Shown one piece after another: positions 28,229 through 43,343 of a stretch of DNA of 64,000 nt. Where the stretch lies: positions 186,001 through 250,000 of the forward strand of contig NZ_OY764327.1 of assembly GCF_963668385.1 (NCBI RefSeq), given 5' to 3'. The notes under the pieces were generated by a model that worked only from the letters and a program-made list of their open reading frames with translations, searched no databases and was not told the origin of the DNA. The translations under genes were made by a program, and so were the position numbers. Source of the DNA: an uncultured Carboxylicivirga sp. Its GTDB lineage: Bacteria > Bacteroidota > Bacteroidia > Bacteroidales > Marinilabiliaceae. Every line of letters starts with the position of its first letter. Positions within the stretch are counted from its first letter, which is position 1.

Positions 28229-28372
28229 ATCACAAGGTCAAAGTTTAAAAGGCAAAAGTTAAAAGTAAGATAGATTATAGATTGATAGGTCAGCAGGTCG
28301 ATAGATTTCTTATCATCATATATTAAATTAATCGACTCATTGATCAATTGAAAATTAATTCATCGAACATTT

Positions 28373-28765
28373 TTACATATCCAACCAGATATTACGACCC
28401 CACACCAGCATAATTACAATTACCAAAACAATCAGGCTCCAAAGAGGCCATTTACGTTGCAGAAAACGAATAAGCTTATCATCATTTCTAAAAACATCTA
28501 TCGCCGCTTGCATAACAGCACCAAGCATAAATACGTTAAATAAAATACCTAAGGGATGGTAAAACAGCGATTGTGACAAGTGCCCATGTATAAGCATCCA
28601 TGTACTTCGGCCCATTCCGCACCCCGGACAAGGTATACTACTCACTTTTTTAAACAAACAAATACTTTCGTGAGACTGCGGAAATGAAGTTAAAAGTAGG
28701 TAACTATACCCCAGCATAATTACCCCTATTATCGTAAGATTAAATAACCTATTGCGATTAGGCAA
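28373..28765 (-). CDS. DUF2752 membrane protein
   Basis: The 130-aa protein has about three hydrophobic segments (near 10-28, 62-84 and 104-124). It contains the family signature [14 protein letters not shown] near residues 41-54 and an H..G..FYHPLG stretch. The Cys pair could bind metal, but the function is unknown. Its start overlaps the end of the TM2 gene by 8 nt, so the two are co-transcribed. The TM2-DUF2752 pair is a familiar combination in this phylum, as I recall. Confidence 0.82.
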
Positions 28766-29093
28766 CTCTTGTAAATTTCTCGAAGTTACTATCTTTAGTA
28801 GCTCCCATAATCAAGAATAAATCAACCAATGTCCAGATACCAAAACCTCCACAAGTTAATAATTTAGCTATACCTAAACCGGTTTGGCCTAACATAAAAC
28901 GATCAACACCTAAATAGCCAAAAAAGAATGACAAAACCAGCATGATAGTTGGGTTTCGGTATTCTTGTGTGCTAATCAGGAAAAAGCGTTGATCATCAAT
29001 CTCTTCCAATTTCTTTTTAATAACAGGCATCGATTCTGCCGGAAAGCGCTCAGCATTCTGCGCCAGGAATAAAGTAATACTATTTGAATCCAT
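28758..29093 (-). CDS. TM2-domain membrane protein
   Basis: The 111-aa protein has a soluble helical N-terminus (about 45 residues). A TM2 domain follows: a first hydrophobic segment [15 protein letters not shown], a short turn [13 protein letters not shown], and a second segment [10 protein letters not shown]. The DRF motif between helices is the hallmark of TM2 proteins. The role is unknown; the family may sense or organise membranes. It is the first gene of a two-gene unit with DUF2752 and has a well-matched promoter 18 bp upstream. Confidence 0.85.
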
Positions 29094-29110
29094 AATTTAA
29101 GTTTGAGGCG

Positions 29111-29140
29111 CAAAACTAGTAAAAATGTGCATTTTATCAA
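29111..29140 (-). promoter_or_regulatory. Promoter of the TM2-DUF2752 unit
   Basis: On the minus strand TTG (29140-29138), 19 bp, then TAGTTTTG (29118-29111) matches the Bacteroidota consensus. The start codon at 29093 implies a leader of about 12 nt. Confidence 0.7.
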
Positions 29141-29213
29141 CACTTACTATTTCCATTTCTAAAAATCATTAAAACTTATAAAGTGCATTACTTTTTTATA
29201 TCAATTAGTTCTG

Positions 29214-29221
29214 TAAATTTG
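29214..29221 (+). promoter_or_regulatory. -7 box ahead of glyA
   Basis: TAAATTTG fits TAnnTTTG, divergent from the TM2 promoter. No TTG at the expected -33 distance. It would give a leader of about 95 nt. Confidence 0.4.
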
Positions 29222-29323
29222 TGGACTCGTGATGAATAAGCTGTAAAACATATAAACCATAACTCCAGCTATTGGTTAAGCATTAACTAGATTAGAAAGG
29301 GTTAAAAACTAATTACAAAACAA

Positions 29324-30604
29324 ATGAAAAGAGATACAGTCATCTTTGACCTGATCAAAAAAGAATACGATCGTCAAAAAAACGGTATTGAATTAATTGC
29401 TTCTGAAAATTTTGTGAGTGAGCAAGTAATGGAAGCTCAGGGTTCGTGTTTAACCAACAAATACGCCGAAGGATATCCAGGCAAACGTTATTACGGAGGT
29501 TGTCAGGTAGTGGATCAAACCGAGCAATTGGCTATTGATCGTGCCTGCGAACTTTTTGGAGCGGAATATGCCAACGTTCAACCACACTCGGGGGCACAAG
29601 CTAATGCTGCAGTGTTTTTTGCCTGTTTGAAGCCAGGTGATACTTTTATGGGATTGGATTTGGCTCATGGTGGTCACCTTACACATGGTTCGCCTGTTAA
29701 CTTCTCTGGTGTAACTTACCACGCCATTTCATACCACGTAAAAGAAGATACCGGCTTGGTTGATTACGACGAAATGGAAACCTTGGCTCGTGAGCAAAAA
29801 CCTAAAATGATTATTGCAGGTGCATCGGCTTACTCGCGCGAATGGGATTACGCCCGTATGCGTCGTTTGGCTGATGAAATTGGTGCTTTATTGCTTTGCG
29901 ACATGGCTCACCCTGCCGGTTTAATTGCCAAAGGCAAATTGAACAACCCGGTTGAGCATTGCCACATTGTTACAACCACTACTCATAAAACACTTCGCGG
30001 ACCTCGCGGTGGTATGATTTTGATGGGTAAAGACTACGAAAACCCATTTGGTATTAAAACACCAAAAGGCGAAACCAAAATGATGAGTGCTGTTTTGGAT
30101 TTTGCTGTTTTCCCTGGTCAGCAAGGTGGACCTTTGGAGCACGTAATTGCAGCTAAAGCAGTTGCTTTTGGCGAAGCTTTATCTGATGATTATGGAGTGT
30201 ATATCGAGCAGGTTCAAAAGAATGCTCAAGTGATGGCCGAGGAGTTTATCAAAAAAGGATATAAGATTATCTCAGGCGGTACCGATAACCACTTAATGTT
30301 AATCGACCTTAGAACTAAATTCCCTGATATTACTGGTAAGCAAGTTGAAAACATATTAGTTAAAGCTGACATTACTCTTAATAAAAACATGGTACCATTC
30401 GACAGCCGATCACCATTCACAACCTCAGGTATTCGTGTGGGAACTTCAGCAGTTACATCGCGTGGTTTAAAAGAGGCTGATATGGTTACTATTGTTGATT
30501 TTATCGACGAAGTAATTTCAAATATCGACAACGACGAAGTAATTGCCGGTGTATGTAAAAAAGTAAATGCGCTGATGGCTGACAAGCCAATGTTTGCTTG
30601 GTAA
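29324..30604 (+). CDS. glyA: Serine hydroxymethyltransferase
   Basis: PLP enzyme interconverting serine and glycine while loading one-carbon units on tetrahydrofolate. The 426-aa protein is full length. It shows ELIASENF near the N-terminus, [33 protein letters not shown], and the PLP-lysine motif [14 protein letters not shown] with K222. The C-terminal [13 protein letters not shown] is also standard. It is monocistronic, with a strong terminator downstream. That hairpin is duplicated 9.9 kb away at the end of the GLPGLI module. Confidence 0.97.
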
Positions 30605-30668
30605 TTTTAAGCTGATAGCTATTAGAAGTTAAAACACTTCGCTTTTAGTTGTTAGAATTTACAATATT

Positions 30669-30720
30669 AAAGAACGGTTCTTTATAGCCATTATGGCAAT
30701 AGAGAACCGTTCTTTTTTTT
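30669..30720 (+). terminator. Terminator after glyA; one of two near-identical hairpins bounding the GLPGLI module
   Basis: A 13-bp stem (30669-30681 with 30703-30715) with a 21-nt loop is followed by T. The sequence recurs almost unchanged at 40601-40650. The string AGCTGATAGCTA-TAG, just after each preceding gene's stop, is also shared. Confidence 0.8.
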
Positions 30721-30793
30721 ATACCAACAATAAAATTTGATTTTAATCATTATACATAAAGTATTACGATTACTAATTTTATAAACCTAATCG

Positions 30794-31630
30794 ATGCAAA
30801 AAACAACCATTATTATTTTAGCCCTTTTACTTAATAACGTAGTTAATGCGCAGGATTACGAATTATTAGATTCGACAAAATACATTGCACAATACACCTA
30901 CACAGTGCAACGAGATGCCCAGAACACAGATGACAAAACTACTTATACCATGTTACTGTATTTGGGCGATAAAGTGAGTAAATTTGAACACATGCAAGCC
31001 TACATCCGCGATTCGCTTCGCAATAAGGCTAAAACAGCAGCCAACCAATATACCGCTTACATGGATATGTTTGAGAAATCGGCTAGTAGCGAAACTGCCG
31101 GATACTTAGCTTCTTTTCGAATTATCAAACACTTGAATAGCAACCATCTGTTCTTAAGCGAAAAGATAGTATTCTGTCGCCAGAATATTAAGGTGATGGA
31201 AGAGCCTGTTTTTAACTGGCAATTAATAAACTCTTCTCCCGAAGTGTTGCAGGGATATACATGTAACAAGGCAAGCCTCTTATTTAAGGGGCGTACTTAT
31301 ACTGCATGGTACACCCCCGAAATTCCAATTAGCGACGGTCCTTACAAGTTTAAAGGTTTACCCGGCTTAATTGTTAAAATTGAAGACACACAACACCAAC
31401 ATTGTTTTGTATTGAATAAGTTTACAAAAACAGCATACCATATTCCTATTTATACTCAAGCCCAAAACTACACTTCTGTAACTATGACCGAGTATTACAA
31501 AATAAAAAGGACTGATAATGCAAAGATGATTGAGCTATTTAACAATCCTGAAAAATTCCAGACTAATGCTGACATGGGCGAAGTAATATCGAAAATTAAC
31601 AAGCGCAACAATTTTATTGAAAAATTATAG
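30794..31630 (+). CDS. GLPGLI-family secreted protein 1
   Basis: The 278-aa precursor has a signal peptide (residues 1-20, ending VNAQ). The defining motif GPYKFKGLPGLI is at 182-193, preceded by GYTCNKA (single Cys) and AWYTPEIPISD and followed by KIEDTQHQH. It ends RNNFIEKL, matching the family's conserved C-terminal Asn...Ile-Glu. GLPGLI proteins (TIGR01200) are exported proteins of Bacteroidota with unknown function. This copy stands alone: it has no small-peptide gene in front, unlike the later ones. The 21-bp minisatellite starts 12 bp after its stop and continues in the same reading frame. Confidence 0.87.
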   Translation: MQKTTIIILALLLNNVVNAQDYELLDSTKYIAQYTYTVQRDAQNTDDKTTYTMLLYLGDKVSKFEHMQAYIRDSLRNKAKTAANQYTAYMDMFEKSASSETAGYLASFRIIKHLNSNHLFLSEKIVFCRQNIKVMEEPVFNWQLINSSPEVLQGYTCNKASLLFKGRTYTAWYTPEIPISDGPYKFKGLPGLIVKIEDTQHQHCFVLNKFTKTAYHIPIYTQAQNYTSVTMTEYYKIKRTDNAKMIELFNNPEKFQTNADMGEVISKINKRNNFIEKL

Positions 31631-31642
31631 CATTTACAGTCA

Positions 31643-31999
31643 AGTAAGCATCTGACTACGTCGGGTAGCATAATGGCAGTATCAGGTACAATGCTGTCAA
31701 TACCGGGTAGGCATCTGTCGGTGTCAGGTAACAATCTGACAGTCCATGATAAACATCTGTCTACGTCGGGTAGCTTAATGGCAGTATCAAGTACGACGCT
31801 GTCAGTGCCGGGTAGGCATCTGTCGGTGTCAGGTAACAATCTTTCAGTCCAAGGTAAGCATCTGTCTACGTCGGGTAGCATAATGGCAGTATCAAGTACG
31901 ACGCTGTCAGTGCCGGGTAGGCATCTGTCGGTGTCAGGTAACAATCTTTCAGTCCAAGGTAAGCATCTAACTACGTCGGGTAGCGCAATGGCAGTATCA
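31643..31999. repeat. 21-bp minisatellite, 17 units with 105-bp higher-order period
   Basis: Exactly 17 units of 21 bp (357 bp), loosely GGTAnnnATCTGTCnGTGnCA, arranged in a five-unit (105-bp) super-repeat; for example GGTAGGCATCTGTCGGTGTCA returns every 105 bp. Because 21 is a multiple of 3, all units read in one frame on the plus strand (GRHLSVSGNNLSVQGKHLS...). A 122-codon open frame results (31673-32041). That frame is the one used by the GLPGLI gene upstream of its TAG. I treat it as intergenic variable-number DNA: the GLPGLI stop sits at the family's usual C-terminus and there is no ribosome-binding site. Confidence 0.85.
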
Positions 32000-32292
32000 G
32001 GTACTCATCTCATAAACAACATAACACATACTAAAGGTTAGTGTATGCTAGTAAATAAAAGCCAGCAACAATTAAAATACAATAGTATTATTCCTTTAAT
32101 ATATAGCATTATAAATCCACCTAAGTTCATTATAACATTTTAATCATTCCAAACTTATCATTCACATAACTTTATACTTTATTCACACAATAAAATCATT
32201 TTTTATTACAAAAATAGTGTTACGATTACCCTTTTTTGCAATTAACCATTGAGTATTCAATGGTGAGACTCAAAAACTTTAAATCAGTTTTT

Positions 32293-32967
32293 ATGAATTC
32301 TAAACAACGTAACAAAGTTTCAATGTTCAGGGCAGTTAATAATGTGTTTAATACCTACACTTCTGAATTAAGTTCTATACCTGTTTTGGTTAGCTTGATC
32401 GAAACCTTTGGTAACAATCTTATTAACATTGAAGATGTTTTACTTATTCAACAAGGCAAAACAACAGGAGCCAGCAAATTAAAAACAAAAGAAGAAGAAG
32501 AAATGATAGAAGCAACTGTACAAATGGCCGGTTCTATTTTTGTATACGCACAGGATAATAACCAACCCGACCTGAAAGAAAAATGTGCCATATCTTCCTC
32601 TCAGATTAGAAATATGTCGGATGAAGATGTAAAAACAGCCTGCCTCAATATTTATGCAGAAGCTGCAAGATTAGATGGTGCATTAACCGACTATGGTAAA
32701 ACGCCCGAAGACATTGCTCAGCTAAAAAAAGAAATTGACGACTTTGCTACCTTGATCGCCTCTCCCCGATCGGCCATTGTAACCCGCTCGCAGGCTACCC
32801 GAGAACTGGCTCGCTTAATTACCGAAAACAACGATTTATTGCGACTGAAAGCAGATAAACTGATGGAATTATTTAAAACCACTAACACTAAACTTTACAA
32901 TACTTACAAAGCAGCACGCGTTATTGTTGATTTACGGGCAGGTAAGCAAACAATAGTAGAAGAATAA
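32293..32967 (+). CDS. Uncharacterised helical Bacteroidota protein (MNSKQRNKVSMF type)
   Basis: The protein is 224 aa from ATG 32293; an upstream ATG at 32260 and TTG at 32236 are in frame, but relatives I recall begin with a short basic stretch and SMF/SMY as here. It is almost wholly helical, with no signal peptide or membrane segment. It has a mid-protein Thr-Thr-Gly (GKTTGASKLKTKEEEE), a Ser-Pro-Arg turn (IASPRSAI) and a C-terminal LFKTTNTKLYNTYKAARVIVDL. That last stretch recurs in this family, which is found in multiple copies in Bacteroidota genomes. Function unknown. It lies between the minisatellite and the wHTH gene and has its own hairpin downstream. Confidence 0.75.
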   Translation: MNSKQRNKVSMFRAVNNVFNTYTSELSSIPVLVSLIETFGNNLINIEDVLLIQQGKTTGASKLKTKEEEEMIEATVQMAGSIFVYAQDNNQPDLKEKCAISSSQIRNMSDEDVKTACLNIYAEAARLDGALTDYGKTPEDIAQLKKEIDDFATLIASPRSAIVTRSQATRELARLITENNDLLRLKADKLMELFKTTNTKLYNTYKAARVIVDLRAGKQTIVEE

Positions 32968-32976
32968 AATTAAAGG

Positions 32977-33015
32977 ATGCGATCTTAATAAAACAAATAT
33001 TCGAAAAGATCGCAT
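32977..33015 (+). terminator. Hairpin after the 32293-32967 gene
   Basis: A perfect 10-bp stem ATGCGATCTT (32977-32986) with AAGATCGCAT (33006-33015). The following sequence is only moderately T-rich, so termination strength is uncertain. Confidence 0.5.
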
Positions 33016-33100
33016 TCATTCTACTCAAACACCCCTCTTTCATTCGCCATATAATAAGAGGATTTTATAAACAAAGATTAAAGCCAAAACTCACCTAATT

Positions 33101-33346
33101 ATGAAAATTAACTTAAAAACCATCCCCTACCAACAACTAGCATCACTTATCGAAAATCAACAAACTGGCACTGCCTCAAAGTTGGCCAAACAAATTGGCG
33201 TATCGCGCTCTACCCTTTTTAATATGCTCGATGAAATAAGAGGTGCCGGAGTTGAAATTGAATACTGCGAAGAAAAACATAGTTATATCTACACAAATAA
33301 TAAACGCATAAAAGTAAATCAACCCATCGAAATTATAGCAACTTAA
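33101..33346 (+). CDS. Small winged-helix transcriptional regulator
   Basis: The 81-aa protein has a helix-turn-helix of HTH_11/winged type (KLAKQIGVSRSTLFNMLDEIRG) and a wing-like strand pair (VEIEYCEEKHSYIYTN). It has no ligand domain. It precedes the first poly-G/leader/peptide cassette by about 40 bp and points the same way. It may therefore control the cassette, or be part of its unit; both are inference. No copy precedes the second cassette, so a shared trans-acting role for both leaders is possible. Confidence 0.75.
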   Translation: MKINLKTIPYQQLASLIENQQTGTASKLAKQIGVSRSTLFNMLDEIRGAGVEIEYCEEKHSYIYTNNKRIKVNQPIEIIAT

Positions 33347-33379
33347 TAGAACAACACCCCTATTAGGTCTTTTAATATA

Positions 33380-33560
33380 AAAAAAAAGGGGGGGGGTAGT
33401 CTATTTTATTACACTAGCACTCATGTATATTTATACTGCTTTATAAATGGCCATTTAAAAGCAACCCCTGCCAACCTATTTTTGCGAACCGGTGCAGCAG
33501 GGGCGCAGGATTTAACCTGCACAAAATTAATTTATTTATTAACAACTTAAATTTTGTGTT
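33380..33560 (+). promoter_or_regulatory. Cassette leader 1: poly-G tract and conserved upstream region
   Basis: An A run is followed by nine G (33388-33396). About 70 bp on begins a block nearly identical to leader 2: CCCCTGCCAACC, TATTTTTG (33477-33484, fits the -7 consensus), CCGGTGCAGCAGGGG, and the hairpin GCAGG-ATTTAA-CCTGC. The block ends AACAACTTAAATTTTGTG at the peptide start codon. CCCCTGC and GCAGGGG flank the -7 box as an inverted repeat. The strict conservation of non-coding sequence between the two cassettes suggests shared transcriptional control or a structured mRNA leader. Confidence 0.6.
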
Positions 33561-33743
33561 ATGAAAAAACATTTGAAGAAGTTTTTATTTGTAGCTGGAT
33601 TTGTAGCAATTACAGCTGCTGCAAATGCAAAAGTATGGCCCATCGAATGCGAAGATGGATCAGCATACCTTCTAATCACGACAGAAACTGATCGCTTTCT
33701 AGATTTGATTGCCTATCTCGATGCCTGTGAAGCACTTTGTTAA
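33561..33743 (+). CDS. Small secreted two-cysteine peptide 1
   Basis: The 60-aa precursor begins MKKHLKKFLF with a hydrophobic signal ending AAANA (cleavage near residue 23). The mature part is about 37 residues: KVWPIECEDGSAYL, a helix-like stretch, and the end LDACEALC. It shares MKKHLKK, xIxCxxGxxY and a terminal (D/E)xLC or ALC with peptide 2, so the two form a family. Conserved Cys near mature position 7 and at the C-terminus could form a disulfide; this copy has one extra Cys. It is not a NVEALA-type peptide by its sequence. It lies just upstream of two GLPGLI genes, separated by a hairpin. Function unknown. Confidence 0.7.
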   Translation: MKKHLKKFLFVAGFVAITAAANAKVWPIECEDGSAYLLITTETDRFLDLIAYLDACEALC

Positions 33744-33755
33744 AATTTATCTACA

Positions 33756-33789
33756 CTCTTCCTCAATGACTCTAACTATTGGGGAAGAG
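33756..33789 (+). promoter_or_regulatory. Hairpin between peptide 1 and GLPGLI 2
   Basis: CTCTTCCTCAA (33756-33766) pairs with TTGGGGAAGAG (33779-33789), 11 bp with one G-U. No T run follows, so it looks like an attenuator or mRNA-stability element, not a full terminator. The second cassette has a hairpin in the same place. Confidence 0.6.
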
Positions 33790-33813
33790 GTAACTTTTAC
33801 TAAATTAAAGCAA

Positions 33814-34662
33814 ATGAAACAAACTTATAAACAATACCTCCTTTTCTCACTTTTGGTAATATTATCATTATCATTAGGTGCACAAACAAATAATGGCGTT
33901 AAAATAATTAACCCTTCAATTTTCTTTGCATCCTACAACTATGAATATCAAGAAGATTCTGCAAGTATCAACTCTCGCAGACAAGAAGAAATGTGGCTAT
34001 TAATTGGTAAAGATCTTTCTCAATTTGCTCACAATAGCATGTTCAGGATGGACTCCATGTTCTATAACTGCAATGATATTAATGATCCCAAAAATATGAT
34101 GAAAATCGGCCAACAACTTAGAGGAGATAAATTTTCTTATCTCACAAGTTATCGTATTATTAAATCCAATAATAAACTAACTACAGATTCTTATGAAGTA
34201 ATTTCCAATACCTACTATAAACTATCTGAAGAAATTACTTTTGATTGGAAACTAACTAACAAACCAGACACACTTATCTCAAACTTTTTATGCAAAGAAG
34301 CACAGACTACTTATAGGGGGCGAAAATATAATGCTTGGTACTCAGTGTCAATTCCCATTAACGATGGCCCCTACAAATTCAGAGGATTACCTGGTTTAAT
34401 TGTTAAAGTTGAGGATGTAGAAAAAGAACATAGCTTCTCACTTACATCTTTCGAAAAAATAAGCTACAATAAACCAATAACTTTATGGGATAGAAAATTT
34501 TCAGATGCTGAACCTGAACAATATTCAAAACTAAAACACAATCAAACCCTAGATAATCTTAGAAAATATGGAAACCCTCAAGTGGTGAATTTATCTCAAG
34601 ATAAACTGGGTAGTGTTGAAGCAAAAATTTTAAGTAGAAATAACCTAATTGAAAAGTATTAA
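33814..34662 (+). CDS. GLPGLI-family secreted protein 2
   Basis: I start at ATG 33814 (282 aa), where a signal peptide begins (MKQTYKQYLLFSLLVILSLS, ending LGAQ). The upstream in-frame Met at 33709 overlaps the peptide gene. The motif GPYKFRGLPGLIVKVED is near residue 190, preceded by LCKEAQTTYRGRKYNAWYS and followed by EKEHSF. The C-terminus RNNLIEKY matches copies 3 and 4 exactly. It is the second gene of cassette 1, with copy 3 following after 141 bp. Copies 2 and 3 are the closest pair (shared ASYNYEYQ, KEMWL-type and LGSVEAKIL segments), pointing to local duplication. Confidence 0.87.
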   Translation: MKQTYKQYLLFSLLVILSLSLGAQTNNGVKIINPSIFFASYNYEYQEDSASINSRRQEEMWLLIGKDLSQFAHNSMFRMDSMFYNCNDINDPKNMMKIGQQLRGDKFSYLTSYRIIKSNNKLTTDSYEVISNTYYKLSEEITFDWKLTNKPDTLISNFLCKEAQTTYRGRKYNAWYSVSIPINDGPYKFRGLPGLIVKVEDVEKEHSFSLTSFEKISYNKPITLWDRKFSDAEPEQYSKLKHNQTLDNLRKYGNPQVVNLSQDKLGSVEAKILSRNNLIEKY

Positions 34663-34803
34663 ATAATATCATTAACGCCGTTCATGTACCACTTACAACA
34701 TACATCTTTATCCAATACTCAATAAATACAACCGAATACTCATTTACACAATGCATACTGTCATAATTTGTGGTAATTAACACTCAGTAAATAAAGCTAA
34801 GCT

Positions 34804-35640
34804 ATGAGAGAACTGCTTTTAGTCCTATTGATCACTGTACCCCCACTTTGCCGGATAAACGCTCAAAGCCATAACGGGATTAAAATCATCGATAAGGCTC
34901 AGTACTTTGCATCCTATAACTACGAATACCAGCAAGACTCAACCAGTACTAGTTCAAAAAAGCAAAAAGAAATGTGGTTATTCATTGGAGAGAACATCTC
35001 TGAATTTTCGCATAACAGCATTTACCGAATGGATTCTATGTTTTACGAATGCCTTGATGTTAAAAAACAATCAAACCTCGTACATATTATTAACCAATTA
35101 AAAGACGATTCTTTTAATTTTTTCACTCAGTACAGTATTATTAAAGATAAAAGCAGCAACAAGATAGATTTATATGAAGTTGCTTCAAGCAATTACTATC
35201 ATCTTCCGGATAACATCTCATTCAATTGGAAAATAACCAACAAAAAAGATACGGTAATTGCAGGCTACCAATGCAAGGAAGCTCAAACAAGCTATAGAGG
35301 CAGACAATACAGAGCATGGTACACCATGGCTATTCCTATTAGTGATGGCCCCTATAAATTTAAAGGGCTACCTGGTTTAATTATAAAACTGGAAGACACT
35401 CACAAAGAACACTGTTTTGAATTAGAAACTTTCAAAAAGATTAACTACAACAAGCCCATATATTTATGGGATAAAAAATTCATCGAAATAGAAGCTAAGC
35501 AATACCGCAAACTAAAACATAACGAAGCATTAGACAGATCAAGAATGATAGGCGCCCAGGTTCAAAACATATCCTCCGAGAAATTAGGAAGTGTGGAAGC
35601 CAAAATACTAAGAAGGAATAATCTGATTGAAAAGTATTAA
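34804..35640 (+). CDS. GLPGLI-family secreted protein 3
   Basis: The 278-aa protein has a signal peptide (MRELLLVLLITVPPL..., ending INAQ). It contains FASYNYEYQQDS, GYQCKEAQTSYRGRQY, AWYTMAIPISDGPYKF, then GLPGLIIKLED and KEHCFEL, and ends LGSVEAKILRRNNLIEKY. It is a close paralogue of copy 2. A near-perfect 14-bp hairpin follows its stop, ending cassette 1. The role is unknown; GLPGLI proteins are exported and are often found next to TonB-receptor-like proteins, as here. Confidence 0.87.
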   Translation: MRELLLVLLITVPPLCRINAQSHNGIKIIDKAQYFASYNYEYQQDSTSTSSKKQKEMWLFIGENISEFSHNSIYRMDSMFYECLDVKKQSNLVHIINQLKDDSFNFFTQYSIIKDKSSNKIDLYEVASSNYYHLPDNISFNWKITNKKDTVIAGYQCKEAQTSYRGRQYRAWYTMAIPISDGPYKFKGLPGLIIKLEDTHKEHCFELETFKKINYNKPIYLWDKKFIEIEAKQYRKLKHNEALDRSRMIGAQVQNISSEKLGSVEAKILRRNNLIEKY

Positions 35641-35653
35641 ACTAAAAGATATA

Positions 35654-35686
35654 ATTCAAGGTGTGACTTTGAGTCACGCCTTGAAT
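35654..35686 (+). terminator. Hairpin after cassette 1
   Basis: ATTCAAGGTGTGAC (35654-35667) pairs with GTCACGCCTTGAAT (35673-35686), 14 bp with one G-U and a 5-nt loop. It lacks a T run on the plus strand, so it may terminate poorly or protect the mRNA end. Confidence 0.5.
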
Positions 35687-35774
35687 AAAGCATACAATCT
35701 TTATTGGCTAGATGTAAGATAACATCGCATCCGTAACGACATCACCAATGTTAATTAACATTATTTAACAAAAG

Positions 35775-35957
35775 AAAAAAAAGGGGGGGGGGCAGTGTAT
35801 TTTTTTGGACTAGTATCCACATACCTTTACACTGCTTTATTAATGACCATTTAGAAGCAACCCCTGCCAACCTATTTTTGCGAACCGGTGCAGCAGGGGT
35901 GCAGGATTAAACCTGCACAAAATTAATTTTAATTATTAACAACTTAAATTTTGTGTA
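35775..35957 (+). promoter_or_regulatory. Cassette leader 2: poly-G tract and conserved upstream region
   Basis: An A run and ten G (35783-35792) are followed by the same block as leader 1: CCCCTGCCAACC, TATTTTTG (35873-35880), CCGGTGCAGCAGGGG, then GTGCAGG-ATTAAA-CCTGCAC (7-bp stem, longer than in leader 1). It ends AACAACTTAAATTTTGTG at the start codon. The part between the G tract and the conserved block has diverged from leader 1, while the block itself is almost unchanged. Confidence 0.6.
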
Positions 35958-36146
35958 ATGAAAAAACATTTGAAAAAAATTGTATTGATGAGTAGTTTTG
36001 TCGCAATGGCTGCAGCTGCTAATGCTGATGTTTTCCACATCAAATGTAATAATGGAAAAGAGTATAATTACATATCTCTAGAACCTGTCGGTTCCGATGC
36101 AGAAGCAGCTGATTTCGAGCAAGCAATTGAAGATCTTTGCTCTTAA
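35958..36146 (+). CDS. Small secreted two-cysteine peptide 2
   Basis: The 62-aa precursor begins MKKHLKKIVLM and has a signal ending AAANA (cleavage near residue 23). The mature ~39 residues read DVFHIKCNNGKEYNYISLE and end AIEDLCS. The two Cys positions, the Gly-x-x-Tyr step and an acidic, helix-forming C-terminal part are shared with peptide 1. The leaders and signal sequences are more alike than the mature parts, the usual pattern for families of secreted effector or signalling peptides. It lies upstream of GLPGLI 4-5 and the barrel protein. Function unknown. Confidence 0.7.
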   Translation: MKKHLKKIVLMSSFVAMAAAANADVFHIKCNNGKEYNYISLEPVGSDAEAADFEQAIEDLCS

Positions 36147-36160
36147 AAAAACAATTAAAT

Positions 36161-36192
36161 AATCCCGTTATCAAAGTATTGATCTCGGGATT
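36161..36192 (+). promoter_or_regulatory. Hairpin between peptide 2 and GLPGLI 4
   Basis: AATCCCG (36161-36167) pairs with CGGGATT (36186-36192), with a further ATCAA/TTGAT pairing inside. There is no long T run. It occupies the same position as the hairpin in cassette 1, although the sequence is unrelated, suggesting selection for structure. Confidence 0.6.
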
Positions 36193-36225
36193 AAAACATT
36201 TACAATTCTATTTTCATTCATACTA

Positions 36226-37077
36226 ATGCTACATATTAAAACCCTTTTTACAACAATACTATTGTGTGCTTTAACTATTTTATCAAACGCACAATCGAAC
36301 AAAAACAAATCTAAGATAAGCATAATTGATAACGCTAGATATATTGCAACTTACAATTACGAATTTCAGGAAGATTCCGTTATTACAAGTCTAAGACGTC
36401 AAACAACTATGATGCTTTACATAGGAGATCACCTATCTGAATTCGGAAATTCTAACCTTTTTTACAGAGATTCTCTTTATAGAAACAATAATAAAGAAGT
36501 TCAACAGATTACTCGCGAGTACATAAATCATATTATGGGTAGCCCAACCCCTATGTTAGCTCAATATAGAATCATCAAACACAAAGACTCTTCTAGTATA
36601 GATTTTTATGAACGAATACTAAAAACGAATTATCATATTAAAGAAAACAACAAATTTATCTGGGAACTTATTAACTCAAAAGACACTATTATTGCAGGTT
36701 ATCAGTGTAAATTAGCTCAAACTAATTATAGGGGGCGAAAGTATAATGCATGGTACACTTTATATGTTCCCATAAGCGATGGTCCCTATAAATTTAGTGG
36801 ATTACCAGGATTAATCATTAAACTACAAGATTCTCATCAAGAACATGTTTTTGAATTAGTTTCATTTTCAAAAAAGGAGAATAATTATCCCATCTATTTT
36901 TCACAACAAAATTTCATTATCCTTGATATTAACAAATACCCTCAGTTAAAGAAAAACGAGATTTTAGGCAGAATAAAAAGAGTAGATAGTCCACAAGTAG
37001 AAAACTTAACTACTGATCAAATGGGGCATATCGAAGCAAAAATTTTAAGTAGAAACAATATAATTGAAAAGTATTAA
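36226..37077 (+). CDS. GLPGLI-family secreted protein 4
   Basis: The 283-aa protein has a signal peptide (MLHIKTLFTTILLCALTILS, ending NAQ). It contains YIATYNYEFQEDS, GYQCKLAQTNYRGRKY, NAWYTLYVPISDGPYKF, then GLPGLIIKLQD and QEHVFEL, and ends IEAKILSRNNIIEKY. The stop codon TAA is immediately followed by the ATG of copy 5 (37078), a tight translational coupling. It heads the GLPGLI pair of cassette 2. Confidence 0.87.
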   Translation: MLHIKTLFTTILLCALTILSNAQSNKNKSKISIIDNARYIATYNYEFQEDSVITSLRRQTTMMLYIGDHLSEFGNSNLFYRDSLYRNNNKEVQQITREYINHIMGSPTPMLAQYRIIKHKDSSSIDFYERILKTNYHIKENNKFIWELINSKDTIIAGYQCKLAQTNYRGRKYNAWYTLYVPISDGPYKFSGLPGLIIKLQDSHQEHVFELVSFSKKENNYPIYFSQQNFIILDINKYPQLKKNEILGRIKRVDSPQVENLTTDQMGHIEAKILSRNNIIEKY

Positions 37078-37911
37078 ATGGATAGATATTCCTTCCTAAC
37101 TCTGATGCTGATTATAGCAAGCGTACAAATAACTTTAGCTCAAACCTATCAAACACTTGACAAGGTAAAATACGTCTGCCACTACAATTACGAATTCGTG
37201 CTGGATTCAACTAACCGATCAAAAACCAAAACCACGGATATGGTTTTACTTATTGGGGCAAAATATTCTCAATTTGCACATAGTAGTTTACCTGATAAAG
37301 ATTCTTTGTTATTAGTTTATAAGAACGAAGATCCTGAATCGGCGGCCATGAAAATATTACCACAATTAATGGGTAATCCTCCTACCTTTTTCACTTCTTT
37401 CAACATCATAAAATCATCGGAGAACAACAGTTGTAATCTGTATGAAAAGGTAACGAGTACCTACTTAAAAATATCGATGCCTACGGCATTAAAATGGCAA
37501 TTGACAGCCAATACCGATACCCTATTGGCAGGCACCAAAGCGCAAGTAGCTACCACCCAGTATGCAGGCAGAACATTCAAAGCATGGTACACAACCGAAG
37601 TACCCGTTAGCGATGGGCCGTATATATTCGGTGGTCTGCCCGGTTTGATTCTTAAATTAGAAGATACTCAAAGGCAACACTGCTTCGAGCTTACTTCTTT
37701 TGAACCAATCAGCTACAACAAACCTATTTTACTGGAAGATAAAAACTATATTAATACCAATATACAAGGTTATCAAAAAGCTAAAAAAGGAGATATTGAA
37801 GAACGTATTCAACGCTATGCAAATCCGGAAGTGCTTCAACTGAATGATGATGAGAAAGCAAAACTTAATGCCAAACTAAGAAGTCGCAACAATTATATTG
37901 AACGTTTATAG
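37078..37911 (+). CDS. GLPGLI-family secreted protein 5
   Basis: The 277-aa protein has a signal ending TLAQ near residue 22. The motif reads GPYIFGGLPGLILKLED, preceded by AWYTTEVPVSD and followed by RQHCFEL. It ends LRSRNNYIERL. It is the most divergent of the set: the Cys present in the other four (GYxCKxA) is replaced (GTKAQVA). It starts directly after the stop of copy 4, and the barrel protein begins 8 bp after its own stop. Copies 4, 5 and the barrel are therefore one transcription unit. Confidence 0.87.
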   Translation: MDRYSFLTLMLIIASVQITLAQTYQTLDKVKYVCHYNYEFVLDSTNRSKTKTTDMVLLIGAKYSQFAHSSLPDKDSLLLVYKNEDPESAAMKILPQLMGNPPTFFTSFNIIKSSENNSCNLYEKVTSTYLKISMPTALKWQLTANTDTLLAGTKAQVATTQYAGRTFKAWYTTEVPVSDGPYIFGGLPGLILKLEDTQRQHCFELTSFEPISYNKPILLEDKNYINTNIQGYQKAKKGDIEERIQRYANPEVLQLNDDEKAKLNAKLRSRNNYIERL

Positions 37912-37919
37912 TAGTTATT

Positions 37920-40550
37920 ATGCGCTTAAACCTGATTCTGGCTTTATTTATTTTTAGTACAATCCATATTAATGCACAAACAAAATTAAATGGAATTATT
38001 GTAGGAGAAGATAATCAACCCGCCGCAGCGGTAAGTGTAATGTTATTAAATCCCGAAGCAGATAATAATATTATCACCTACGCTTTTACCGATGATAAGG
38101 GACTTTTTAATATGAGCTACACTACCCTGGTGGATAGTGTAACTCTTTCGTGCCGTTCGTTAAACTATAACGACACTACTCTTATCATTGCCAATAAAAC
38201 ACAGGAAATTCACATAATGCTGCCAACAGAAGTAAAAGCTATAAAAGAGGTAAATGTACACGGCACACCTATTGTAAGTAAACAAGATACCACCACTTAC
38301 ATGGTAGGTTCGTTTGAAAAACAAAGCGATGAGTCGATTGGTGATGTAATTAAGCGCATGCCCGGTTTTACAGTTGAGGCAAGCGGTAAAATATACTATA
38401 TGGGCAAACCCATTGATAAATATTACATCGAAGGGATGGATTTACTGGAAGGACGATATGGTATTGCCAACAAAAACCTGTCGAACAAAGCAGTTGGATC
38501 TGTTGAAGTATTACACAACCATCAGCCCATAAAAATGCTGCGCGATAAGGTTTTTAACGATGGTACTTCATTGAACCTGAAACTTAAAAAGAAATATACT
38601 ACCACCTTTCGAGCCGAAGGAGCCATAGGCATCCCGTTTCCCAGGTACAGTGCCAACATTACACCCATGCTATTTTCGCCCAAGCACCAGATGATAGCAA
38701 CGCTGCAGGCCAATAATATTGGTAACGATTTATCAACACAGCATCATCCGTTTACCATATCGTACAACGAAATTGATAATTACACTAATACCAAACCCAA
38801 TCTACTGGATATTTCATCGGTAACACCACCGGGGATCTCTAACCGCGAGCGTTACCTAATGAACAATGCCGCCCTTATCAGCTTCAACTATCTTACCAAG
38901 CTTAGCGATGAAGAAGAATTAAAAACCAACCTTAGCTATTACAACGATCGGATTGAAGAAGAAGCATTGATCGAAACCGAGTATTACCTCGAAAATGACA
39001 CCACTCGTTTGCGTGAACATACCGAAAATACATTCAAAAAAAACAGTTTGATCACCGATCTGATCTATACTAACAATGCCAGTAAAAAATATGTAAACAA
39101 TAAGTTTCGCCTCGAAAACTATTGGGATAAGGCAGAAGCATCGATTAACGAGAGGCAGCAGCTTCAGAATGCCAACCTCCCCCACTTTTCAGCAGCCGAT
39201 GAACTGGATTGGCATCGCATGGTGGGTAAGCATTTTATCAGTTTCAAAGCTTTTGTTGATTACAACCATAGTCCGCAACAAATGCAGTACCAACCCGGAG
39301 TATTTGATAATTACATCAACAACGGCGAATCATACAACCAAGCTACTCAACACTACTTAAAGCAGGATTTACGCACCAAAGCATCAGCTGCTTTTACACT
39401 CACCCATAAGCGATGGGCCTTTTCAACCAAAGCATTTGTCAACTTCAGCCTGAACAAACTGAATACAACTATTGACAACAATGGCTTTGGAATAACTGCC
39501 GACAGCTTGCGCAATAAACTCAACTGGACTGAGAGTGAAGCGGGAGTTGATGAAAAAATAAGTTACGAAACTCCAAGTCTGAAACTTCGGTTTAACCTGC
39601 CCTTTTCGTATGTCAATAACAATATTGATGATGCTTATCATCATGCCGGTCAACAAATACAACAAACCATTTTTGCTCCCAGGGCATATCTTAATTACGA
39701 GTTCTGTAATTTTTTCAAGCTGATAACTTCGGCATCTTACAGTAAAAGTCTGGGAGACATTAACGGGCTCACCCAAGGCTTTATCATCAATAATTACCGG
39801 AGTTTAAACCGTGGCTTAAATCAATTGCCACACAAATATAGATACATGGGAAGCATCCGCACCGAATTCAAAAATCCCTTGTCAGGATGGTTTGCCTCTG
39901 TCGATTACAGATATAGCTTAAATCATAGTGATATTATCACCCGCCAGATAAGTATGGGCAATGGTGTTTTTCAAAGCGAGATTCTTCCCTACGATAATGA
40001 AAAATCGGATCATACCATCAATGGAGAAATAACGTACTACATTGCCAATTGGCGTTCAACCATTGGTATTAACTCTACCAATAGTTTTCAACAATCGCAA
40101 TATGTATTAAACCAATCACTAAGCGACAGAGAAATGCTAACTAACATGGCCGGATTAAATATTAACTGGGGCTATTGGAGAGCATTACAGATTAAATATC
40201 GTTTTAACTACACACAAACCCGCCAGCAGACCACGCAGGCGAATAGTAAATTTTACAACTACGCACAAGTATTGGATTTCTTCTTCTACCTAACTAAAAA
40301 ACAATGGATAAACATTAGAGGAGAATACAACCTCAACGAAAACAACCAACAAACATTCGAGAATTGGTTTGGTGATTTTAGTTATGCATTCAAACCTACA
40401 AAAGGAAAATTCAGCTATAAAATCAAATGCCGGAATGTTTTCGACACAAAACAACTGGTTAGTTATTGGAACAGCGATATTTCATTGGTCAGAAACACGT
40501 ATTATCTAAGACCAAGGGAGATACTACTGAATGTGAGTTATAGGTTTTAA
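37920..40550 (+). CDS. TonB-receptor-like outer-membrane barrel protein paired with GLPGLI proteins
   Basis: The 876-aa protein has a signal peptide (residues 1-20, ending INAQ). A CarboxypepD_reg-like domain covers about 22-105 (NGIIVGEDNQPAAAVSVML). A plug-like domain follows (EVNVHGTPI; DVIKRMPGFTVEASGKIYY; YYIEGMDLLEGRYG; GSVEVLHNHQP), then a barrel ending LNVSYRF. No canonical TonB box is obvious. Barrels of this type with the GxxYYIEGxDLL element commonly accompany GLPGLI genes. They may serve as the outer-membrane port or anchor for whatever the GLPGLI proteins and small peptides do. It is the last gene of the cassette 2 operon. Confidence 0.8.
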   Translation: MRLNLILALFIFSTIHINAQTKLNGIIVGEDNQPAAAVSVMLLNPEADNNIITYAFTDDKGLFNMSYTTLVDSVTLSCRSLNYNDTTLIIANKTQEIHIMLPTEVKAIKEVNVHGTPIVSKQDTTTYMVGSFEKQSDESIGDVIKRMPGFTVEASGKIYYMGKPIDKYYIEGMDLLEGRYGIANKNLSNKAVGSVEVLHNHQPIKMLRDKVFNDGTSLNLKLKKKYTTTFRAEGAIGIPFPRYSANITPMLFSPKHQMIATLQANNIGNDLSTQHHPFTISYNEIDNYTNTKPNLLDISSVTPPGISNRERYLMNNAALISFNYLTKLSDEEELKTNLSYYNDRIEEEALIETEYYLENDTTRLREHTENTFKKNSLITDLIYTNNASKKYVNNKFRLENYWDKAEASINERQQLQNANLPHFSAADELDWHRMVGKHFISFKAFVDYNHSPQQMQYQPGVFDNYINNGESYNQATQHYLKQDLRTKASAAFTLTHKRWAFSTKAFVNFSLNKLNTTIDNNGFGITADSLRNKLNWTESEAGVDEKISYETPSLKLRFNLPFSYVNNNIDDAYHHAGQQIQQTIFAPRAYLNYEFCNFFKLITSASYSKSLGDINGLTQGFIINNYRSLNRGLNQLPHKYRYMGSIRTEFKNPLSGWFASVDYRYSLNHSDIITRQISMGNGVFQSEILPYDNEKSDHTINGEITYYIANWRSTIGINSTNSFQQSQYVLNQSLSDREMLTNMAGLNINWGYWRALQIKYRFNYTQTRQQTTQANSKFYNYAQVLDFFFYLTKKQWINIRGEYNLNENNQQTFENWFGDFSYAFKPTKGKFSYKIKCRNVFDTKQLVSYWNSDISLVRNTYYLRPREILLNVSYRF

Positions 40551-40600
40551 AAAAAGCTGATAGCTACTAGCTGTTGGCTACTAGTTTTAAGAAACAATAT

Positions 40601-40650
40601 AAGGAACGGTTCTTTATAGCCATAATGGTAATAGAGAACCGTTCCTTTTT
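40601..40650 (+). terminator. Terminator at the end of the GLPGLI module (second copy of the glyA hairpin)
   Basis: AAGGAACGGTTCT pairs with AGAACCGTTCCTT across the loop TTATAGCCATAATGGTAAT, followed by T. It differs from the glyA hairpin at only a few positions. Confidence 0.8.
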
Positions 40651-40694
40651 AACCATCAGCCAACAGCTATTAGCTTTTTATGTATTTTTACCTA

Positions 40695-41465
40695 ATGGAT
40701 ATTTCAGCTCTTAACATTCTTCTTTTAATCCTTGCCGGTTTATTTGCCGGATTCATCAACACACTTGCCGGAAGTGGCTCATTAATAACGCTGCCCATGT
40801 TGATGTTTCTGGGTTTAAGTCCCCACCAGGCCAATGCAACCAACCGCATAGCTATATTTATTCAGAATATTGTTGCAGTGCGTAATTTTCGAAAACAGAA
40901 AACACTGGATTATAGAAGCAATATCTATCTGATTATACCAGCTTTATTTGGTTCTGTTGCCGGAGCTCTTGTCTCCATCAATATCAGTGAACAGGCTTTA
41001 AACTACTTTATCGGCATCTTGCTGTTTGTAATGTTTTTCGTGATACTTTTAAAACCCGATAAATGGATCAAAGAACAAGCCGGCCATATTGAAGGTAAGC
41101 CTACCTATTGGCAACTAATTATCTTCTTTTTCATCGGCTTTTACGGTGGTTTTATTCAAGCTGGAGTCGGACTATTTTTGTTAGCAGGTTTAGTCTTAGG
41201 CGTAGGGTACAATCTTATTCAAGCCAACGCAGTAAAGGTTTTAATTGTACTTTGTTATACAGCTATTGCATTAGTATTCTTTATTTGGGCTGGTCAAATC
41301 AACTACTTGTATGGATTTATTCTTGCAGCAGGTAATGCTTCAGGAGCTTTCATAGCTTCGAAATATGCCAAACAAATTGGGGTAAAACCAATCCGATACA
41401 TCTTATTGGGAGCTGTTATGCTGGCCGCTATGAAAGTGTTGGGAATTTTTGATCTGCTTTTTTAA
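40695..41465 (+). CDS. TauE/SafE-family permease
   Basis: The 256-aa protein from ATG 40695 has about eight membrane segments. I choose this start because the five codons from ATG 40680 overlap a promoter-like TATTTTTA. It contains the repeated family motif in each half: GFINTLAGSGSLITLP near the N-terminus and GFYGGFIQAGVGLFLL in the middle. The family moves sulfite, sulfonates, thiosulfate or other organic anions; substrate unclear. It stands alone between the GLPGLI module and the TonB operon. Confidence 0.85.
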   Translation: MDISALNILLLILAGLFAGFINTLAGSGSLITLPMLMFLGLSPHQANATNRIAIFIQNIVAVRNFRKQKTLDYRSNIYLIIPALFGSVAGALVSINISEQALNYFIGILLFVMFFVILLKPDKWIKEQAGHIEGKPTYWQLIIFFFIGFYGGFIQAGVGLFLLAGLVLGVGYNLIQANAVKVLIVLCYTAIALVFFIWAGQINYLYGFILAAGNASGAFIASKYAKQIGVKPIRYILLGAVMLAAMKVLGIFDLLF

Positions 41466-41653
41466 GTAACAAGACATTTCCAATCGCTACTACTCGATCT
41501 ACCTGCTACTCGATTCCTATCGAGTAGTTTATATTTATGAATTTCTTAATTCAACAGAACTAATATCGATAGGAATTGATTTGACATTAGCCCTTCGTTT
41601 TCAAACGAAGGGTAGCTACTGACCACTGACTAAATACTAACAAACTTACTGTT

Positions 41654-42553
41654 CTAATCCAAAACAAAATGATAGGTAATAGTGCCTTGCTGATAAGCAG
41701 CTGCTTCTTTATCGGAATTAAACTTCGCTTTTTTAGCTGCTTCAATGGCTCTGTTACGAAGCTCTTTATTCATTGTATTTGTACCTTTTAAATTAACATC
41801 TGCAGCGGTTACATATCCATTTTTATCAACTGTAATATTAACTACTACGATACCTTCTTCCTGAATGCGATAAGTAGGCAAAGGTAAAGTTCCCACCAGA
41901 CTTCTTCCACTCAAATCAAACCCATTACCTGAGTTTCCTAGGCCCGATCCGGTTCTATTAGTACTATTACCTCCGGTTGTCTGTCCCTGATTACCTGTTC
42001 CGCCCGTATCCCCTTCCGAAGTATTGTCACCGGTTCCCTTTCCAAAGGCTCCTTTTACTTTATTTCGTGCCTCAGCAGCCTGACGATCCAGTTCTTCCTG
42101 ACGCCTGCGTTCTTCTTCTTCAATACGTTTACGCTCCAATTCCTCCTGACGCTGACGTTCTAATTCTTCTTTCCTAATCCTTTCTTGCTCTTCTCTTTCT
42201 TTGCGTTCCTTCTCCAAACGCTCCTTCTCCTCTTTTTCTTTCTTTTTCTGAGCTTCGGATTTTACAACCGGAGCTTCGTCATAATCTTGTGTTTCAATAT
42301 CTTCTTTTTCAGGTTCTGGCTGTATTGGTTCAGGCGTTTTAACGGGAGGAGGTGTTACTTGCTCCTGCTTTACAGCCTCAGATTCTTTGGGCTCTTCGGG
42401 CCCCTGACCTAATACTGTATCCCCAAAACTTACCAATATCCCTTCTTCTCCTTTGGGTAGCGTTTTCAATCCAAAGAAAATCAGAAACAACAACAGTAAA
42501 GAATGAAATACTGTTGTACCAATTACACCGTATCGTTTGTTTTTATCATTCAT
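41654..42553 (-). CDS. tonB: Energy transducer TonB-like protein
   Basis: The 299-aa protein links the proton-driven ExbB/ExbD complex to outer-membrane receptors. It has one N-terminal membrane anchor (GTTVFHSLLLLFLIFFGL, about 12-30) and a Pro/Glu-rich stretch (60-95). A long highly charged Glu/Lys/Arg coiled coil follows (about 98-165), then a Gly/Thr/Asn-rich linker (170-215). A short C-terminal TonB/TolA-like domain ends the protein (VVNITVDKNGYV...AKFNSDKEAAAYQQGTITYHF). The coiled coil makes it TolA-like in shape, but its place after exbB-exbD-exbD argues for TonB. It is the last gene of the operon. Confidence 0.82.
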   Translation of the reverse strand: MNDKNKRYGVIGTTVFHSLLLLFLIFFGLKTLPKGEEGILVSFGDTVLGQGPEEPKESEAVKQEQVTPPPVKTPEPIQPEPEKEDIETQDYDEAPVVKSEAQKKKEKEEKERLEKERKEREEQERIRKEELERQRQEELERKRIEEEERRRQEELDRQAAEARNKVKGAFGKGTGDNTSEGDTGGTGNQGQTTGGNSTNRTGSGLGNSGNGFDLSGRSLVGTLPLPTYRIQEEGIVVVNITVDKNGYVTAADVNLKGTNTMNKELRNRAIEAAKKAKFNSDKEAAAYQQGTITYHFVLD

Positions 42554-42555
42554 AT

Positions 42556-42951
42556 TTACTTGGCTTGTGTGGCCAATATCAACTTATATTTATTTCGGAT
42601 GGCAATATCTCTTATTTTACCAACCACCGAAAACGGAACCGACTCATCGACATGCAATGCTACATACATTTCGGGACTATTTGCCAATATTTCTTTCAAT
42701 TTAGATTCTATTTGCCAGAAAGCAACCTTCTCGCCCTGTACAAAATATTCGCGGTTAGCATTTACCGAAATAGTAGTATTAGGCTTGGCTGATACCTGAT
42801 GATCACTCTTGGGTAATGTCAGGTCTTTATTAGCCACTGGCGTTACTAATGTTGATGTAATCATAAAAAAGATCAGCAACAGAAAAACAATGTCAGTCAT
42901 CGACGACATGCTGAAACCAGAATCTACTTTACTTCTTCTTTTGAGTCCCAT
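42556..42951 (-). CDS. exbD: ExbD/TolR-family protein 2
   Basis: The 131-aa protein has an N-terminal SMSSMTDIVFLLLIFFMITSTL, with the Asp in the single membrane helix that carries protons. A periplasmic domain follows (KSDHQVSAKPNTTISVN...VGKIRDIAIRNKYKLILAT). It shares one base with the preceding exbD stop and lies 2 bp from tonB, so translation is coupled. Two different ExbD subunits in one operon are usual in Bacteroidota. Confidence 0.92.
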   Translation of the reverse strand: MGLKRRSKVDSGFSMSSMTDIVFLLLIFFMITSTLVTPVANKDLTLPKSDHQVSAKPNTTISVNANREYFVQGEKVAFWQIESKLKEILANSPEMYVALHVDESVPFSVVGKIRDIAIRNKYKLILATQAK

Positions 42952-43340
42952 TACCTGATATCCAAAATTACTTTTACACCATTCGATTCCGCAATATCCA
43001 ACACACGGGCAGCATCACCTGTCGACGCATTAGCATCGGTACGCAGCTTAATGATGGTTTTATCATTACGAGAAAAAAGTCTCACCAAATTGCCTTCTAC
43101 CTGATCACTCCCCATCCATTTACCATCTACTACATAACGTCCCGAAGCAGTTACCCTTACATTTAAGTAAGTTTCAACCACAACCTTCTTTGTGCTTTTC
43201 TTTGGTATCAACAATTTTATGGCATTAGGATGCACCATTGTTGAAGTGATCATAAAAAAGATCAGCAACAAAAACACAATGTCGGTCATAGACGACATAC
43301 TGAAACTGGCACTTATTTTTGTTCTTCGCTTTAAAGCCAT
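42951..43340 (-). CDS. exbD: ExbD/TolR-family protein 1
   Basis: The 129-aa protein has the same helix SMSSMTDIVFLLLIFFMITS as its neighbour, with a proton-carrying Asp, and a different periplasmic domain (IPKKSTKKVVVETYL...ARVLDIAESNGVKVILDIR). It lies 3 bp after exbB and overlaps the second exbD by 1 base. The N-terminal MALKRRTKISASFSMSSMTD is almost repeated in the second copy (MGLKRRSKVDSGFSMSSMTD), indicating tandem duplication. Confidence 0.92.
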   Translation of the reverse strand: MALKRRTKISASFSMSSMTDIVFLLLIFFMITSTMVHPNAIKLLIPKKSTKKVVVETYLNVRVTASGRYVVDGKWMGSDQVEGNLVRLFSRNDKTIIKLRTDANASTGDAARVLDIAESNGVKVILDIR

Positions 43341-43343
43341 GTT

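Follow-up and report, generated by a model that had tools for sequence, protein, structure and literature searches.

Background

What could small secreted cysteine peptides be doing in front of genes for GLPGLI proteins, a family with no assigned job? The question is raised by a locus in a window of 64 kb (positions 186001-250000 of one 6.27 Mb contig) from an uncultured Carboxylicivirga sp., in which the plus strand carries a GLPGLI gene (30794), a small helix-turn-helix (HTH) gene (33101), a poly-G tract, a leader, Cys peptide 1 (33561), two GLPGLI genes (33814 and 34804), a second poly-G tract and leader, Cys peptide 2 (35958), two further GLPGLI genes (36226 and 37078) and an outer-membrane barrel gene (37920). 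In this study, linkage of such peptides to GLPGLI genes is shown in several groups of the phylum. A full-text search that left most subscription journals outside returned three papers containing the word GLPGLI, two of which name such genes only within lists of regulated genes, and no mention of Porph_ging, PF09697 or TIGR01200.

The original prediction for this DNA placed two peptide open reading frames (ORFs), two GLPGLI pairs and two poly-G tracts here, and all of them lie where it put them. Its two parallel cassettes share gene order but not spacing, with 141 nt within the first GLPGLI pair and 0 within the second. The four GLPGLI genes it listed are real, but the fifth, at 30794, was missed, and the HTH gene also belongs to the locus; the receptor-like barrel it noticed downstream exists, but as a single gene behind cassette 2 and not one per cassette. 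A syntenic locus is present in two genomes of the genus (G006 and G002).

Results and discussion

Linkage of cysteine peptides to GLPGLI genes

One rule was applied to all genes over 98 loci, counting relatives directly upstream that carry a Sec signal plus 2-4 cysteines. Such an ORF preceded 26/152 GLPGLI genes and 5/686 other genes; two of the 26 (L137 and L163) look spurious, and 24/152 still gives p 2e-14. When ATG starts only were accepted, Sec-type ORFs with at least two cysteines stood before 27/151 GLPGLI genes and 3/685 others, compared with 4/151 and 4/685 for ORFs of the double-glycine (GG) type, and 2/151 and 4/685 for Sec-type ORFs without cysteine pairs. The census rate is inflated, because most loci were picked as nearest to the window's GLPGLI proteins. 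In a sample drawn without regard to likeness to the window (26 GLPGLI genes in 29 loci, the best matches from a draw of 198 genomes) Sec-Cys peptides were found at two genes, both in the tandem locus L249, so that the dedicated small secreted partner proposed for GLPGLI proteins is supported, but for a minority of them. A reverse search of 395 genomes with a peptide profile returned six matches outside the window's own genome, two of them directly upstream of GLPGLI genes (L223 and L225), three in longer proteins and one in a short Cys ORF with no GLPGLI gene within its 3.2 kb (L224). A barrel resembling CarboxypepD/TonB-receptor proteins occurs at 20/22 peptide loci, and locus L183 combines three Sec-Cys peptide-GLPGLI units and more GLPGLI genes with one barrel. 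In several Bacteroidales loci (L147:7268-7537, L150, L157 and L186) the DNA leading from the C run or promoter to the peptide codes for a short conserved tail (CxTKYIFxxGKNKFD type, by eye).

Sequence, family and fold of the peptides

The motifs xIxCxxGxxY and C-terminal Leu-Cys had been read correctly in both peptides, and the proposed divergence of the mature parts is evident at the DNA level (53.5% identity, versus 73.9% in the signal part). The 18 signal-part changes between the two copies fall 6, 1 and 11 on the three codon positions, and the excess at third positions (11/18) fits coding DNA. The mature parts of the two peptides contain 3 and 2 cysteines. Neither peptide exceeded the cut-off of any Pfam or NCBIfam family or has a GG leader, and TIGR03949 and TIGR04149 gave no over-cut-off match among 25 peptides scanned, both window peptides included.

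The profile, built from six peptides (four from the genus and a single one from each of two further genera in the family; threshold E 5), matched short Sec-type ORFs before GLPGLI genes in Porphyromonas bennonis and a Bacteroidetes metagenome-assembled genome (MAG) at E 3e-4, in Thermophagus and a Bacteroidales MAG at E 2e-3, and in a Prevotellaceae MAG at 0.04. Weak matches, such as Chryseobacterium hagamense at E 2.3, were counted for their position and cysteines, and the same match list includes unrelated proteins at E of at least 0.4. A lack of homologous peptide ORFs beside GLPGLI genes in other genomes, which would have refuted the original prediction, was not observed: similar ORFs stand next to these genes in several other genera. 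Judged by sequence, the peptides are an unnamed family in several Bacteroidota groups, adjoining GLPGLI genes.

Cys1 and Cys3 are both present in 18/26 peptides, both absent in 7 and discordant in one (L152, by rule; Fisher p 1e-5). Such paired loss agrees with disulfides Cys1-Cys3 and Cys2-Cys4, and the window peptides are consistent with retention of the second putative pair, Cys2-Cys4. The loss events are fewer than the rows, because 3/7 of the both-absent peptides come from the window's genus. The structural model of the L143 peptide, made with 20 sequences, comprises two strands and a helix (mean predicted local distance difference test score, pLDDT, 77, mature part about 90; predicted template modelling score 0.50), and a search against the PDB gave no convincing match.

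GLPGLI proteins and the barrel

The five window proteins score 132.5-157.7 bits against TIGR01200 (cut-off 50) and are the only over-cut-off matches in the 6.27 Mb genome, with two below at 22.5 and 20.3 bits; of 198 genomes sampled evenly across the window's class, 54 had GLPGLI matches at E 1e-20. The model of the cassette 2a protein has a LolA-type fold, with structural likeness to the bowl domain of PNGase F-II and to periplasmic carriers of the LolA/RseB type, MucB also being matched. The fold is common to the open-barrel carriers LolA, LolB and RseB, but no LolA model in Pfam or NCBIfam matched GLPGLI by sequence; remote homology is possible. The N-terminal bowl-like (NBL) domain of PNGase F-II is the best structural and sequence relative, but it is fused to an N-glycanase while GLPGLI is free-standing; its function is called unknown in the available part of PMC9522356.

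In a tree of 15 GLPGLI proteins (5/12 inner branches well supported), 33814 groups with a G006 protein encoded upstream of the HTH gene, and the nearest relative of 30794 is the second G002 protein, located behind the peptide. The GLPGLI units are therefore shuffled, which speaks against fixed peptide-GLPGLI pairing within the genus. Combined in a profile, 16 barrels of the kind found at these loci match the N-termini of SusC, and Pfam Plug was detected at E 0.01 or better in 4/16 aligned barrels, the window's own not among them.

Leader and HTH regulator

The non-coding DNA before the peptides is nearly identical between the cassettes, as had been noticed, but it is longer than the ~110 bp first given, with 164/187 nt identical (87.7%). 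Across 15 leaders, three tandem hairpins (P1-P3) have 96.3% of their cells paired and 10 cells changed on both sides (2.8 in shuffles), both values beyond all 500 shuffles, whereas the number of pairs with both-side changes, 3, was reached by 65/500. The covariation suggested as a check is present in P1 and P2 and absent from P3, where 5/8 pairs never vary; in the minimum-energy fold of a longer stretch of leader 2, pairs around P2 shift. That the hairpins play no RNA role, being DNA operators or remnants of recombination, is somewhat unlikely, and the evidence is divided: the lack of covariation in P3, the shuffles reaching three pairs and the presence of perfect palindromes agree with it, but the counts of paired and both-side cells do not, nor does the leader of G002, in which extra DNA sits within the P1 and P3 loops and both arms are retained.

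A leader model found 26 matches (15 of them its own source sequences) in 13/71 family genomes and, outside the family, matched no genome among 295 of the order. Fourteen precede GG-type peptides, three stand before the Cys peptides of the window (two) and G006 (one), and one stands before a lipoprotein-like gene (G007), the other eight being unread, cut or frameshifted; the leader therefore also serves GG bacteriocin-like peptides. The G002 leader, the fourth before a Cys peptide, was missed by this model and found by BLAST. In G007 (L054:8190-8804) the gene behind the leader and its C8 tract encodes a lipoprotein-like product of 204 aa in place of a Cys peptide.

All four non-GG loci and 12/15 other leader loci have a small HTH gene upstream, on the strand of the leader (at two of these 12, more than 3 kb away), and in other genomes, too, this leader has relatives of the window's HTH protein encoded ahead of it. 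In 12/22 leaders a scripted search detected a perfect palindrome before P1; its core is GGCC in window leader 1, G006, G007 and G076, and by eye in G002, and the leader 2 counterpart of TAAATGGCCATTTA is imperfect. Seven GG loci carry the GTAACGTTAC type. As we read the sequences, GGCC palindromes would pair with HTH proteins reading SRSTLF, SRATLF or SRSKLY, and GTAACGTTAC palindromes mostly with those reading S(K/R)ASLHR or a similar motif. The GG locus G076 has the GGCC-type combination, and G022 (SRTSLF without a GGCC palindrome) is a misfit. The candidate promoter-like element TATATTTA, matched in position by TATATTTG in G002 and G007, resembles the Bacteroidota -7 element, TAnnTTTG. The HTH regulators of three GG loci (L056:6035-6370, L057:6088-6423 and L140:7008-7343) have a double-glycine-like C-terminus (ELQAVNGGF type) that the window's HTH protein lacks, and might sense the exporter's peptidase.

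Slippage-prone repeats

The window's two G runs (9 G, 33388-33396; 10 G, 35783-35792) are its only runs of at least 8 G or C. With repeats defined as such a run, or a 3-6 nt unit at least 5 times, within 450 nt upstream, they were found before 10/27 peptides, versus 1/186 genes in the same loci and 2/765 in all named loci, and without the window's genus before 6/23 peptides (p 2e-5). Of 242 control genes preceded by 300 nt or more of intergenic DNA, three had repeats, two of them from this same leader system. The run of L143 lies within the reading frame of an HTH relative, and L223 has a TTTC array. Slippage in homopolymeric tracts is treated in the part of PMC2831843 that was available. The repeats suggest phase variation, one genome per species being compared, and the peptide system is probably phase-variable.

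Relation to bacteriocins and modified peptides

Bacteroidetocins (class IIf), according to the accessible part of PMC6671954, have a GG-type leader of 15-16 aa and resemble the window peptides in being small, occurring in Bacteroidota, holding at least two cysteines and being thought disulfide-bonded. They come, however, with a GG leader, an ABC transporter/peptidase, a transmembrane protein and mostly a thiol oxidoreductase gene; the window locus instead has GLPGLI genes and a barrel, and its peptides a Sec signal. No candidate of the size of an ABC transporter/peptidase was seen by eye among the ORFs listed for 28000-44000; ABC transporter relatives do occur in L128 and L132.

Precursors of radical SAM-modified ribosomally synthesized and post-translationally modified peptides (RiPPs) of TIGR04149 are also among the closest known systems. 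The cut-off of this family is exceeded by one scanned L194 peptide and the L122 peptide, which precede GLPGLI genes with barrels nearby; the window peptides differ in lacking a TIGR04149 match and having a Sec-type signal. L194 consists of three GG-Cys peptide-GLPGLI units and one barrel. L128 reads GG peptide, radical SAM/SPASM protein, CarboxypepD-like protein, bacteriocin-type ABC transporter relative, Sec-Cys peptide, GLPGLI and barrel, its SPASM protein and transporter relative both being under the equivalog cut-offs. From such arrangements, the GLPGLI-barrel part accompanies peptides of either route into the periplasm. L139, a member of the TIGR03949 class IIb bacteriocins (lactobin A/cerein 7B), shares the three-hairpin leader and upstream HTH gene with the window but has a GG leader, an adjoining ABC exporter relative and no GLPGLI gene among the ORFs read. 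The window's own genome has a second locus, of GG peptides, at about 1109-1115 kb (L018:5100-11000), where the leaders are partial and a pair of almost identical CarboxypepD-like proteins of 397 aa is encoded. Among the titles and abstract openings listed for bacteriocin and RiPP contexts, with most subscription journals outside, there is no description of the system.

Proposed mechanism and alternatives

The role of the peptides, for which ligand, cargo and anchored surface factor had been suggested, may be approached from these results. We regard it as possible, if somewhat short of probable, that the locus makes small secreted disulfide bacteriocin-like peptides with LolA-fold GLPGLI partners and a barrel, under HTH and poly-G-slippage control, the parts shown here being gene linkage, cysteine pattern, predicted folds, shared leader and repeat enrichment. 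The peptide would enter the periplasm by Sec, fold as a cysteine-pinned beta-hairpin and helix, be held by the GLPGLI proteins and be passed on to the CarboxypepD barrel, which would release it at the outer membrane or display it there; we infer this outward direction of transport, as well as antagonistic activity. The HTH protein would bind the leader palindrome and set expression, and poly-G slippage would make cells of one clone differ in the peptide made.

Several points weigh against this reading. The system is described here from genes and predicted folds, and the repeat rule was fixed after a first look at the data. In the sample drawn without regard to likeness to the window, 23/26 GLPGLI genes had no peptide and one had a Sec-like ORF without cysteine pairs. 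A LolA-like fold by itself shows no function: LolA carries lipoproteins, and VioE and ependymin-related proteins, too, come up in the fold search. The GLPGLI orthologue beside the peptide changes from species to species in the genus, and TonB-dependent receptors, which the barrel resembles, usually import. Among the ORFs listed for 28000-44000, those above 400 aa (by eye a channel-like 592 aa protein, a glyA-like 426 aa protein and the barrel) include no ABC exporter, and no thiol oxidoreductase was noted.

An importing barrel belongs to the signalling explanation, in which the peptide is a pheromone or stress ligand and the GLPGLI proteins are RseB/MucB-like periplasmic sensors. RseB and MucB among the structural matches, the plug/SusC-like features of the barrel and the HTH regulator inside the locus agree with it; we judge it unlikely, as no sigma or anti-sigma gene was noted among the same ORFs (by eye, no scan) and the repeats and fast mature-part divergence are more in keeping with a weapon or surface factor than with a conserved signal. 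Immunity, with GLPGLI proteins binding the producer's own peptide in the periplasm and the barrel as target or exporter, would account for the one-to-one units of L183 and L194 and the several diverged GLPGLI copies per locus, but is improbable given the varying orthologue beside the peptide, with the 33814 relative upstream of the HTH gene in G006, and the many GLPGLI genes without a peptide. Anchored surface or structural (adhesin-like) factors, as opposed to released toxins, are very unlikely: phase-variable repeats typically mark surface structures in other bacteria, but no lipobox or sorting domain was seen by eye in the 60-62 aa peptides, and RiPP-like peptides also occur in this gene order.

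Beyond the bacteriocin-like reading of this locus, we put forward only tentatively an undescribed Bacteroidota secretion or display route in which small disulfide peptides, each turned on or off by hypermutable repeats, would reach the periplasm by Sec or a GG/C39 exporter, be carried by LolA-fold GLPGLI proteins and exit by way of a CarboxypepD/TonB-type barrel. If true, it would give a function to some GLPGLI proteins and, by analogy, to the PNGase F-II bowl domain. Bacteroidetocin producers possibly must lyse to release their toxin (PMC6671954, in its available part), a gap that an outer-membrane route would fill. Some members of the GLPGLI family are in this way tied to bacteriocin-like peptides, and the linked peptide, predicted carrier fold and barrel make their role testable.

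Features of the locus

Table 1. Features of the GLPGLI locus, in window positions
Feature	Position	Strand	Basis
Fifth GLPGLI protein, upstream locus member	30794..31630	+	TIGR01200 157.7 bits
Small HTH protein of 81 aa, putatively regulating the leader in cis	33101..33346	+	Pfam HTH_11 28.3 bits, cut-off 25
A9G9 tract ahead of leader 1, candidate slippage site	33379..33396	+	sequence; repeat enrichment
TATATTTA, candidate promoter-like element	33426..33433	+	read from sequence
Palindrome TAAATGGCCATTTA, candidate operator	33444..33457	none	sequence
Three-hairpin leader 1, ends just 5' of ATG	33462..33560	+	fold z -2.85; P1 + P2 covariation
Leader 1 hairpins P1, P2, P3	33465-33503, 33505-33520, 33521-33557	+	
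Cys peptide 1, 60 aa, Sec-type signal	33561..33743	+	ORF, family profile, codon-position pattern
GLPGLI protein, cassette 1a	33814..34662	+	TIGR01200 145.6 bits, cut-off 50
GLPGLI protein, cassette 1b	34804..35640	+	TIGR01200 146.8 bits
A8G10 tract ahead of leader 2	35775..35792	+	sequence
Three-hairpin leader 2	35858..35957	+	fold z -3.53
Leader 2 hairpins P1, P2, P3	35860-35900, 35901-35916, 35917-35954	+	
Cys peptide 2, 62 aa, Sec-type signal	35958..36146	+	ORF, family profile
GLPGLI protein, cassette 2a, the modelled copy	36226..37077	+	TIGR01200 154.3 bits; model pLDDT 87.5
GLPGLI protein, cassette 2b	37078..37911	+	TIGR01200 132.5 bits
Outer-membrane barrel, N-terminal CarboxypepD domain, plug-like segment, 876 aa	37920..40550	+	CarboxypepD_reg E 0.0014, under cut-off

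A near-identical hairpin repeat stands at both flanks of the locus (30669-30715 and 40601-40647); it has nine other matches in the genome (E 0.001) and is therefore a dispersed repeat. Between the first GLPGLI gene and the HTH gene, a 122 aa frame of short tandem repeats (GRHLSVSGNNLSVQGKHLS type) occupies 31673-32041, and repeat frames of different composition lie near GLPGLI genes in L055 and L137.

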